A stretch of 64,000 bases of DNA from Alkaliphilus serpentinus (GTDB taxonomy: Bacteria; Bacillota; Clostridia; Peptostreptococcales; Natronincolaceae). Position 1 is the stretch's first letter. Each line of letters opens with the position of its first letter. The notes under the pieces are model-generated. The model worked only from the letters and a program-made list of their open reading frames with translations. It did no database searches and was not told the DNA's origin. This document shows positions 6,774-47,624 of this stretch, piece after piece. The position numbers and the translations under genes are program-made. The stretch spans positions 62,001 to 126,000 of the forward strand of contig NZ_WBZB01000040.1 of the NCBI RefSeq assembly GCF_009017255.1, in the 5' to 3' direction.

Positions 6774-7015
6774 AAAAAAACCACCTTAAAATAATATAGG
6801 GACGAGTTATACCCGCGGTACCACCCTAATTACCATAAAGGTCGCTTTTGGTTACAAACATAACGGTATTTACCGGTAATCTCTACTGTATTCAAGATTA
6901 CAACTCAGAGACTGCTTCATATGATTTTTCTAGAGGCTTCACAGCTACCGCCTCCTCTCTGAAAGAAATCCATCATATTACTACTTCTCATCTTAGTCTT
7001 TACAATATTATATTA
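6774..7015 (-). promoter_or_regulatory. T-box riboswitch of alaS (Ala specifier)
   Basis: The leader contains the canonical T-box AGGGTGGTACCGCGGGT (6811-6827), followed by a GGTGG and seven-U run (6774-6785). A likely stem I hairpin GAGGC...GCCTC lies at about 6940-6960, and an Ala codon GCA (6913-6915) sits in the probable specifier loop, just before the CTCTGAG element. Uncharged tRNA-Ala is expected to bind and switch the terminator off. I could not resolve the exact terminator arms by eye. Confidence 0.92.
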
Positions 7016-43498: not shown

Positions 43499-43697
43499 AA
43501 ACCTCCCAACTAGGGGAGGTTTTTATTTCAGTGACCCGCCATGCCGTTTATCGATTGTTTTGAAACCTGCCTCAGCAGGTGGGTATCCTGTTACTGAGTT
43601 CCGAAGTCCTCTCTGTAGGAGGCTTTTCTTCCATCAATAAACCCAGATTCCCGTATAAGTGATGTTGGCTCAAAACGTGATCGAGTCTACGTACACA
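43499..43697 (-). ncRNA. ssrS: 6S RNA
   Basis: The minus strand here reads like a Firmicute 6S RNA: a closing stem between the 5' part (AATCCTGCTGTGTACGTAG) and the 3' part (GGCATGGCGGGTCACTG), a TTTTGAGCC element and a central open region. It ends in a strong terminator AAACCTCCC-CTAGTT-GGGAGGTTTTT (43497-43524). A TATAAT lies at 43702-43707, just before the proposed 5' end. The position between tcdA (yrvM) and aspS equals that of bsrA in Bacillus subtilis. 6S RNA binds RNA polymerase holoenzyme and tunes transcription in stationary phase. The 5' end is approximate. Confidence 0.88.
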
Positions 43698-43745
43698 GCA
43701 GGATTGTTACTATTATAATAGCATATTATATCCTATTTTTCAAAT

Positions 43746-44264: not shown

Positions 44265-46034
44265 TTAACTCTTACTAACTTCTATACTTAATTCCTTTAG
44301 CTGCTTTTCATCTGCTACTGATGGAGCATTTGTCATAGGGCAGCTGGCATTTTGAGTTTTGGGGAAGGCTATAACCTGCCGAATATTCTCCTCTTTTGTT
44401 AAAAGCATCATAAGTCTATCTAAGCCAAAGGCAATTCCACCATGGGGAGGTGTACCATATTTAAAGGCTTCTAATAGGAAACCAAATTTATCCCATGCTT
44501 CCTCTTCGCTAAAGCCTAAAGCTTTAAACATCCTCTGTTGCACATCGGAGGAGTAGATTCTAATACTGCCTCCACCCACCTCATAGCCATTAATCACAAG
44601 GTCATAGGCCTTTGCCCGAACCTTTTCTGGCTCTGTCTCAAGAAGTTCTAAATCTTCATCCATTGGTGAGGTGAAGGGATGATGCTTTGCTACATATCTA
44701 TCATCTTCCTCATCATACTCAAATAACGGAAAATCTGTTACCCATAAGGCTTTATACTCATCCTTATTCACTAGGTTTAGTCTCTTTGCTACCTCTCCCC
44801 TCAGATGACCAAGGGAGTCATATACCACTGAGTTTTTATCGGCTACAAATAACAGAAGGTCACCCTCTGCGGCATCGCCTCGTTTTAAGATTCCCTGCAT
44901 TTCCTCCTCAGAGAAAAACTTTGCTATTGGGGAAATAACCCCTTCCGCTGTAACCTTAATCCAAGCTAGACCCTTGGCCCCATAGGTTTTAGTATAGTCC
45001 TCTAGGGCTGTAATATCTTTTCTGCTGAATTGATCCCCATATCCCTTAACATTAATGCCCCGTACAGAGCCTCCAGCTTCCACAGCACCAGAGAAGACCT
45101 TGAAGGATGAGGAACTTACTAAATCAGAAACATCAAATAACTCAAAGCCAAAGCGTATATCTGGCTTATCAATGCCATAGCGTTCCATAGCTTCCTTATA
45201 GGTTGTTCGGGGAATTGGTAGGGGAATTTCAACATTAATAACCTCTTTAAATACTTTATGAACCAGACGTTGATTTATATCAATTACATCTTCAGCATCC
45301 ACAAAGGACATCTCGCAGTCTATTTGAGTGAACTCTGGTTGTCTATCGGCCCTTAAATCTTCATCTCTGAAGCATTTTACGATTTGAAAATATCGATCCA
45401 TTCCTGAAACCATCAAAAGCTGCTTAAATAACTGAGGTGACTGGGGTAAGGCGTAGAACTTTCCTGGGTTAACCCTGCTGGGTACTAAGTAGTCTCTTGC
45501 TCCCTCTGGTGTGGTTTTTGTTAAAACCGGGGTTTCTACTTCTATGAAACCCTCCTCTGATAGGAAGTTTCTTACGATACCTGCTGTTTTATGTCTTAAT
45601 ATAAGGTTCTTCTGCATTGTGGACTTTCTTAAGTCAAGATATCGATATTTTAATCGTAGATTCTCGGAAACATCATCGTCGTCCTTAATATATATGGGAG
45701 GTGTGTCAGATGTATTTAACACATCTAAAATCTCTGCGAAAACTTCAATTTCTCCAGTTGGTATATTGGGATTCACCGATTGTCTTTTATGAACCTTCCC
45801 CTTAACTGCAATTACATATTCTGCTCCAATGTCATTGGCCTGATTAAAGGCTTCCATCGAAACCTCCTTATCAAATATAATCTGTACGAACCCTGTTCTA
45901 TCCCTCATATCAGCAAAAATCAAACCACCAAGGTCTCTTCTTTTTTGTACCCATCCCATAAGGGTTACCTCTTCACCGATATTGCTGCTATTTAAAACAC
46001 CACACATATGACTTCTTTTTAGCTTTGTTTTCAT
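44265..46034 (-). CDS. aspS: Aspartyl-tRNA synthetase
   Basis: A 589-residue bacterial-type AspRS. The N-terminal OB domain ([24 protein letters not shown]) binds the anticodon, the core has motif 2 [20 protein letters not shown], the bacterial GAD insertion (about 290-420), [10 protein letters not shown] and motif 3 [13 protein letters not shown]. It follows hisS by 26 bases and shares its T-box leader. Without an AsnRS in view I cannot say whether it is discriminating. Confidence 0.98.
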
Positions 46035-46060: not shown

Positions 46061-47323
46061 TTACTCTTCTAATAAGGAAACCAAATCTCTGACTTCCCCT
46101 CCATCCATAATGCCATAATAATTAAAGCCTTGCTTCTGAAGATTGTTAATTTGCTTACCAAACTTTTTTGCCTTTGGATAGATACTTACAATTTTATCTT
46201 CTTTCCTTAGGCTATCAGCCCAATCAAAAACTGGATTAATATCCTCATCAGAATTAAAAAGTAGGGCTACCTTTGTGGTAGGGTCTGGGATGGTAAAGCC
46301 CTTTTCCATTAAAATAGAAAAGATTCTTTCAAAGCCTATAGAAAAGCCCACCGCTGGAACATCCTCCTTTTGGAATCGGCCAATCATCTTATCGTAGCGT
46401 CCACCACCAGCTATGGAGCTACCGAATTCATTGCTTACAATTTCGAAAATCTGGCCTGTGTAATAGCCCATACCCCTTATTAGGGTTACATCAAACTCAA
46501 TGTTGTACTCTCCATTAGATTGTCTGGTTACAACATCCATAACCCTTTTTAGGGATGTTAACACCTCTTCATCTATATTGTACTTTATAAAGGAATCCTT
46601 ATTTAAGGTCTTTAGCTCAGTTAATGCCTTGAGAAGCTCTTTAGATTTAGCCTCATCATAATCTTTTTCAATAAGCTCCTTTTCAACCCCATTTTGACCG
46701 ATTTTATCCATCTTATCAAGGGTTATACAAATGGTTTCCACCTGATTTTCATCGAAGCCAATAGCGGTAATCAAAAACTTTAAAAGACGTCTATCATTGA
46801 TTTTAACGGTAAAGCTTCTAAAGGATAAAGCTTGTAAAGCTTTAGCCGTGGTTGTTATTAGATCTATTTCCGCTATATCAGAGGCTTCTCCCATGATATC
46901 TATATCACATTGAGTAAACTGTCTAAACCTTCCCTTTTGAGGCTTTTCTGCCCTCCATACCCATCCAATTTGAATTGATTTAAAGGGGTTGGGTAAAGCC
47001 TCTCTGTTATTGGTATAAAATCTACTTAAGGGTAGGGTCAAATCGTAGCGTAATCCTAAATCACACAAATCATCCTCTGTTATATTCTCTTGCTGAAGAT
47101 TTAATTTTTCTCCACGCTTTAAAATTTTAAATAAGAGATTCAGGTTTTCTCCACCTTCGCTCTTGGTTAATAACTCTAAGTTCTCAATGGAAGGTGTTTC
47201 GATCTGTTGAAAACCACTTTGCTTGTATACCTTAATAACGGTATTTTTCATCCATTCCCTTAGTTCCATATCTACTGGGATAATGTCAAAGGTTCCCTTT
47301 GCAGTTGATGTTCTTATTTTCAT
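46061..47323 (-). CDS. hisS: Histidyl-tRNA synthetase, atypical type
   Basis: A 420-residue class II synthetase for histidine. The core motifs are present but differ from the common bacterial His[17 protein letters not shown], motif 2 [24 protein letters not shown] (usual bacterial form FRYERPQ...GRYRQFHQFGVE), [19 protein letters not shown] and [13 protein letters not shown], then [11 protein letters not shown] as motif 3. The QCDIDI form recalls eukaryote-like HisRS lineages. The ATG at 47323 with a GGAGGCAGAGCT site replaces a longer reading from 47344. It is the first gene behind the T-box. Confidence 0.95.
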
Positions 47324-47360
47324 AGCTCTGCCTCCATTCCTCATTTTATTTTTAAATACA

Positions 47361-47590
47361 AAAAACCCCCGTCCCTAGAAGGGACGAGAGTTGAATTTCC
47401 CGCGGTACCACCCTGATTGGATATGCTCCCACTTAAGCCTTAACGCAGCCTCACGTATCCCTCTACTGTTTTCAAAGGATAAGCTCCAAGGTGTCTTCAA
47501 GGTACTCTAGCCTGTCGAGCTTCCACCATCCTCGACTCGCTTAAAGGGTAATATCTTTACTACTCCTCTTCGACGCTTTTTATTGAATTG
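47361..47590 (-). promoter_or_regulatory. T-box riboswitch of hisS-aspS with GACAC specifier
   Basis: The leader has the T-box AGGGTGGTACCGCGGG (47399-47414), a terminator CGTCCCTTCTAGGGACG (47370-47386) followed by GGGGGTTTTTT, and a stem I upstream. The probable specifier loop holds GACAC (47491-47495), which contains both the Asp codon GAC and the His codon CAC overlapping by one base. As the operon encodes both synthetases, one leader may sense both tRNAs. Confidence 0.92.
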
Positions 47591-47595
47591 GTAAT

Positions 47596-47624
47596 ATTAT
47601 AATTCTTTTCCATTGTTGTGTCAA
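47596..47624 (-). promoter_or_regulatory. Sigma-A promoter of the hisS-aspS leader
   Basis: Perfect -35 TTGACA (47619-47624) and -10 TATAAT (47596-47601) with a 17-bp spacer. Confidence 0.92.

Follow-up and report, generated by a model that had tools for sequence, protein, structure and literature searches.

A T-box leader with overlapping GAC and CAC codons ahead of hisS-aspS is best called an Asp T-box

Results

The RNA leader that precedes hisS and aspS in the window (the whole stretch of 64,000 nucleotides of DNA that was analysed) is best read as an ordinary, well-formed T-box, and is best called an Asp T-box. Judging from its anatomy, specifier register, terminator and comparative pattern, it is probably a transcription-attenuating element, and we infer that it binds uncharged tRNA-Asp and responds to it. 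The features of the locus are the following.

47596..47624, minus strand: promoter-like site of the leader, TTGACA-17-TATAAT, 12/12 consensus positions (a consensus match only)
47377..47582, minus strand: T-box leader RNA, stem I to antiterminator (RF00230, 130.1 bits, E 1.4e-28, model positions 1-219, full length)
47565..47568, minus strand: 5′ strand of the lower stem, GAGG, which pairs with CCUU of 47488-47491
47493..47495, minus strand: GAC (Asp), specifier codon in the canonical register (Rfam alignment and MAFFT alignment of 15 T-boxes of the genome)
47491..47493, minus strand: overlapping CAC (His), two bases downstream of the GAC register; its third base, C47491, pairs with G47565
47488..47491, minus strand: 3′ strand of the lower stem, including the last base of CAC (Rfam alignment)
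47407..47410, minus strand: UGGU of the T-box bulge, whose expected partner is the tRNA 3′ end (read from the sequence)
47364..47392, minus strand: intrinsic terminator, 13 pairs and a T run, overlapping the 3′ end of the T-box match
46061..47344, minus strand: hisS, histidine--tRNA ligase of a divergent type (NCBIfam, 320.8 bits, cut-off 286.75)
44265..46034, minus strand: aspS, aspartate--tRNA ligase (named by NCBIfam)

On the minus strand the promoter-like site is thus followed by the T-box leader, the intrinsic terminator, hisS and aspS. The covariance model was matched over its full length at 130.1 bits, to be compared with a gathering score of 93 for RF00230. Two properties expected of a T-box were found: an intrinsic terminator that competes with the antiterminator (47392-47364), and a codon in the canonical slot, GAC, that matches a downstream gene, aspS. 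In the mechanism that these elements suggest, the GUC anticodon of tRNA-Asp would pair with the GAC of the specifier loop, while UGGU would take up the tRNA 3′ end. The antiterminator would then form and RNA polymerase would continue into hisS-aspS.

A first-pass annotation of this DNA had pointed to the pentamer GACAC at positions 47491-47495, in which the codons for Asp and His overlap, and to an operon with HisRS and AspRS genes. The sequence and the NCBIfam matches bore this out: the minus strand reads GACAC from 47495 to 47491 (GTGTC at 47491-47495 of the plus strand), inside the RF00230 match (47582..47377). The placement of the whole pentamer in the specifier loop held for four of its bases. 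In the RF00230 alignment GACA is the unpaired 3′ side of the loop, whereas the CC that follows belongs to the lower stem, in which C47491 pairs with G47565. The Rfam alignment and one made with MAFFT from 15 T-boxes of this genome, the window leader included, agree on these columns: a codon, then mostly A and then the lower stem. RNAalifold, run unprompted on these 15 sequences, returned the same four-pair lower stem with a weak energy of -1.0.

The pair at the top of this stem, which holds the last base of CAC, was formed in 55/55, 35/43 and 40/43 of the rows with letters in three sets of hisS leaders and unformed in 8/43 and 3/43 rows of the last two. These counts lean towards the model and contain a small number of spurious second matches as well as the His control. 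The pair appeared as an A-U double change from G-C in 8, 16 and 1 rows of the 55-, 43- and 43-row sets. When the base at the end of CAC was U, its partner was A in 23/23 cases, and when it was C the partner was G in 102/108. Since the top pair covaries, pairing accounts at least in part for the C or U in the third position of the apparent His codon. The first-pass annotation had held that a helix at these bases would speak against the use of both codons; only the last C of CAC lies in one, in a pair that covaries in the homologues. The two overlapping codons are therefore not both free in the specifier loop of the predicted fold, as they would be in a T-box of the type described by Saad 2013, because the third base of CAC is paired and covarying. 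Crude constrained folds of stem I with ViennaRNA gave -24.0 for the canonical register and -22.2 and -21.4 for the shifted one, a cost of 1.8 or 2.6 kcal/mol; the unconstrained fold of stem I (-27.4) pairs otherwise than the constrained ones.

For the most part, the overlapping His codon seems to be a by-product of T-box architecture. Nine other T-boxes of this genome have a C-ending specifier, and six of these nine read NNCAC as well; the codons of the six, assigned by alignment alone, are those of Ile, Phe, Cys, Arg, Tyr and Gly. The family consensus is NNN-a-CC, which explains why NNCAC is common in this genome: C-ending codons here often precede an A and a paired C or U, and so CAC falls two bases past GAC. 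NNCAC being frequent among other T-boxes, the GACAC overlap alone is unremarkable. Nonetheless, CAC overlaps the specifier in 114/163 hisS leaders, more often than in the other NNC T-boxes of 21 genomes (NNCAC in 10/55, the best-scoring among the matches listed). Some bias thus exists in the hisS leaders that is not fully explained, and some relatives may really use CAC.

The comparison was based on hisS loci drawn, with their flanks, from the genome_contigs collection, from the order and phylum of this genome, and from those genomes that share an order or class with genome G325. The loci examined numbered 244, 75 and 64, and a T-box core lay upstream in 61, 57 and 55 of them (173 in total); because the core was searched for as a regular expression, T-boxes of atypical form may have escaped. 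Four duplicate leaders (L018-L021, duplicates of L083-L086), two core matches judged to be no leaders (L217, L307), two leaders with an unresolved specifier (L195, L205) and two His controls (L262, L263) were excluded, which leaves 163 leaders. The pentamers of 137 are the letters of the model R1 alignment itself (74 GAC, 63 AAC). The other 26 (L083, L119, L125, L129, L131, L169, L204, L207, L209, L219, L221, L252, L266, L433, L434, L443, L457, L463, L464, L469, L473, L482, L484-L486 and L488) were assigned by visual inspection or from Rfam alignments, in part with the aid of a pattern expecting [AG]AC; in L083, L482 and L486 the model alignment is one or two bases off the assigned reading.

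The canonical triplet was GAC (90) or AAC (73) in 163/163 resolved leaders. The pentamers were AACAC (67), GACAC (47), GACAU (18), GACAA (6), GACAG (5), GACCU (5), GACGC (4) and others (11). GAC was followed in the overlapping register by CAC in 47 leaders, by CAU in 18 and by no His codon in 25; the corresponding numbers for AAC were 67, 2 and 4 (CAC in GAC versus AAC leaders, Fisher p 2e-8, kinship ignored). The conservation of GACAC across hisS leaders, which the first-pass annotation had proposed as a check, was not borne out, since the pentamer occurred in 47/163 leaders overall, though in 5/5 when the window leader is taken with its four nearest relatives, all of them with UGGU. The two codons are thus not conserved together as a leader of the Saad type would have them. 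Homologues keeping GAC alone, which the same annotation had named as evidence against its proposal, do exist (43/90 GAC leaders are without CAC, 25 of these without any His codon), and another 73/163 leaders have AAC instead of GAC. The closest named relatives by HisS are four Alkaliphilus loci with 74-76% identity.

The last base of UGGN was C or U in 90/90 GAC leaders and 62/73 AAC leaders. The remaining 11 AAC leaders have UGGA and are all 11 resolved leaders of one genome family, f93 (L139, L437, L445, L449, L451-L457), each of which combines UGGA with AACAC or AACAU (11/11). In two f93 genomes, the genes for tRNA-Asp and tRNA-Asn carry G73 (GCCA ends) and those for tRNA-His carry C73 with G-1; tRNA-His of the window's genome also has C73 and G-1, and no tRNA-Asp gene was found among the 26 tRNA loci scanned in this draft genome. 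The UGGU at 47407-47410 could wobble-pair with G73, as read for tRNA-Asp in two other genomes, but not with C73, and the UGGA of f93 does not fit the G73 of tRNA-Asp or tRNA-Asn. Since UGGA is shared with the hisS leader of Tetragenococcus and mismatches G73, f93 may be, judging from the sequences, a His-reading group. However, two leaders of this family with other specifiers, one a Cys codon and one a Leu codon, also have UGGA, which therefore does not prove His reading. As described in a passage of PMC7778990, the T-box database TBDB does not apply a discriminator match in the case of His, as this base can be paired, and its alternative frames are shifts of one base only.

From the canonical codons GAC and AAC together with a UGGY that fits G73 and not C73, we infer that the leaders sense tRNAs that an AspRS can charge. 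Across the relatives the leader seems to track such tRNAs (tRNA-Asp, and tRNA-Asn where the enzyme accepts it) and not tRNA-His. The presence of AAC ahead of hisS-aspS would make sense if AspRS charges tRNA-Asn. In work on other species, the residue that follows RRD in AspRS (L or H) is taken as a sign of a discriminating or a non-discriminating enzyme. This residue, by which the L-type and H-type rows below are named, was judged unsafe as a marker of specificity, given that the AspRS of S. aureus is described in a passage of PMC4206432 as non-discriminating, charging tRNA-Asn although the species has AsnRS, and that the AspRS enzymes of B. subtilis and B. halodurans retain recognition of tRNA-Asn according to a title listed in PMC5919687.

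It would be very surprising if the alternation of GAC and AAC merely separated genomes with and without AsnRS, the AAC leaders reporting the indirect Asn pathway only. The asnS gene was absent for 15/22 AAC versus 13/32 GAC leaders in the phylum and order samples (asnS was searched for in the genomes of the first two of the three sets of leaders), and the p value of 0.057 (Fisher, kinship ignored) is suggestive. This explanation fails in the order of G325, where asnS is present in 51/52 genomes and yet 34/52 leaders have AAC; the presence of AsnRS is therefore not the general rule. An AspRS that still charges tRNA-Asn may be the rule behind the AAC leaders. A separate T-box, L009 (G000:C78:26248-26502), has a canonical AAC and UGGC and lies just upstream of an AsnRS-like gene, the second in that genome (218.9 bits, below the cut-off).

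Correlated evolution between the loss of GAC and the keeping of CAC was evaluated on a HisS tree (FastTree, own likelihood script, median-scaled branches) and was not significant. For the rows with an L-type AspRS p was 0.38 (full) and 0.22 (CAC given codon), or 0.45 and 0.23 when CAC and CAU were pooled; the values were 0.67 and 0.89 for H-type rows and 0.12 and 0.18 for all rows. A rule by which AAC leaders must keep CAC was discarded because only 67/73 do, and L433 (AACGC) and L488 (AACAA) break it even among leaders with an L-type AspRS.

Discussion

Both the idea that one leader might sense tRNA-His and tRNA-Asp and the GACAC hallmark are already published. According to a passage of PMC5313534, GACAC characterizes the T-boxes of hisS-aspS, and Gutierrez-Preciado 2009 is cited there for binding of mainly tRNA-Asp; the same work is cited in a passage of PMC4342826 for two alternative structures that sense tRNA-His and tRNA-Asp. 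Elsewhere the hisS-aspS T-box is treated as the histidine one (in part of PMC7927825), and synthetase genes located second in an operon are marked as being under a T-box of another specificity (in part of PMC2494555). The operon, the pentamer and the proposed ambiguity of the leaders described in those passages of PMC5313534 and PMC4342826 are the same as in the window, and nothing found here sets the window leader apart. The alternation of GAC and AAC and the UGGA family are absent from the passages just cited.

The precedent invoked by the first-pass annotation, a T-box of Clostridium acetobutylicum that binds two tRNAs, is documented (Saad 2013, as cited in a passage of PMC4052509). It has overlapping codons in one specifier loop and an operon for two amino acids, as here, and the passage states that tRNA-Asn and tRNA-Glu bind in vitro and in vivo. 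Unlike it, the window leader has one codon partly in a predicted helix and is known from sequence alone. Another point of reference is provided by the Tetragenococcus pHDC plasmids, on which the hisS of histidine decarboxylase (L262, L263) is also preceded by a T-box. This leader was taken as a His one because a passage of PMC5313534 gives CAC as the specifier proposed for hisS of histidine decarboxylase clusters. It differs from the window leader in having CAC, one A and then the stem (the usual layout), in its UGGA, and in that no aspS is annotated in the stretch; Rfam sets the A after CAC as an insert, which puts its columns one off.

Several observations run counter to the Asp reading. CAC is commoner in hisS leaders (114/163) than in other NNC T-boxes (10/55, the best-scoring among the matches listed), and AAC leaders keep it more often than GAC leaders do (67/73 versus 47/90). 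The UGGA of f93 (11/11) is unfit for G73, the top pair is unformed in 8/43 and 3/43 rows, the tRNA-Asp gene was not found among the 26 tRNA loci of the draft genome, and control of hisS by Asp only would leave His starvation unsensed. A rival reading is a leader in which tRNA-Asp reads GAC and tRNA-His reads CAC once the top one or two lower-stem pairs open, so that a shortage of either induces both genes. We consider this unlikely. Both hisS and aspS are in the operon, a register shift costs 1.8 or 2.6 kcal/mol in the constrained ViennaRNA folds, CAC is enriched in hisS leaders and the AAC leaders seldom lose it (67/73 keep it). On the other hand, the third base of CAC is paired and covarying, 25/90 GAC leaders are without any His codon, UGGY suits G73 and not C73, and the link between loss of GAC and keeping of CAC is not significant on the HisS tree (p 0.38 and 0.22 for rows with an L-type AspRS). 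The proposal of the first-pass annotation that one leader could read either tRNA by a two-base shift is therefore weakened for the window leader by the paired base, by UGGU, which does not suit C73, and by the free loss of CAC beside GAC; the cost of the shift (1.8-2.6 kcal/mol), the CAC bias and f93, which may read His, keep it alive.

Far less probable than either is a leader that ignores GAC and, with its loop shifted, uses CAC as the specifier. The place of hisS as first gene of the operon and the AACAC or AACAU with UGGA of f93, as in the Tetragenococcus His leader, agree with it, but the window leader and its four nearest relatives have GAC in the canonical slot with UGGU, and a first triplet that is GAC or AAC in 163/163 leaders would be needless if only His were read. 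A broader and more tentative idea, which we regard as somewhat doubtful, is that the hisS-aspS T-boxes are one lineage drifting among tRNA-Asp, tRNA-Asn and, in one family at least (f93 with its UGGA and AACAC), tRNA-His two bases out of register. GACAC as found in the window would then be a bridge state in which one leader can read Asp and His.

The identity of the tRNA that controls hisS-aspS goes back to the 2009 suggestion cited in a passage of PMC4342826, and our literature searches found no later test of it. The comparison sharpens the question, as leaders with GAC or AAC and with UGGY or UGGA predict different tRNAs. A response of AAC leaders to tRNA-Asn would mean that the leader reports the whole tRNA set of AspRS, and a response of f93 leaders to tRNA-His would mean that the shifted register is real.

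Other elements were observed in the course of the analysis. The HisS of the window is divergent, with 320.8 bits to TIGR00442 versus about 490-550 among the matches listed, and its identity to one other HisS type found in its order is 31-34%. In the order of G325, 15 genomes have a second hisS copy (L297-L311); a credible T-box core was found for 0/15 of these copies within roughly 660 bases upstream, one pattern match being judged false. A tRNA gene with anticodon GUG (His) is located on a Tetragenococcus histidine decarboxylase plasmid (L263:3788-3862, minus strand), and a weak second T-box-like stem I (18.3 bits) lies downstream of a Cys-codon T-box (L007:1356-1468, minus strand). On the minus strand of the window there are also a second T-box with the canonical codon GCA (Ala) at 6795-7003 (151 bits) and a 6S RNA at 43529-43707 (RF00013, 89.3 bits), about 560 bases downstream of aspS.
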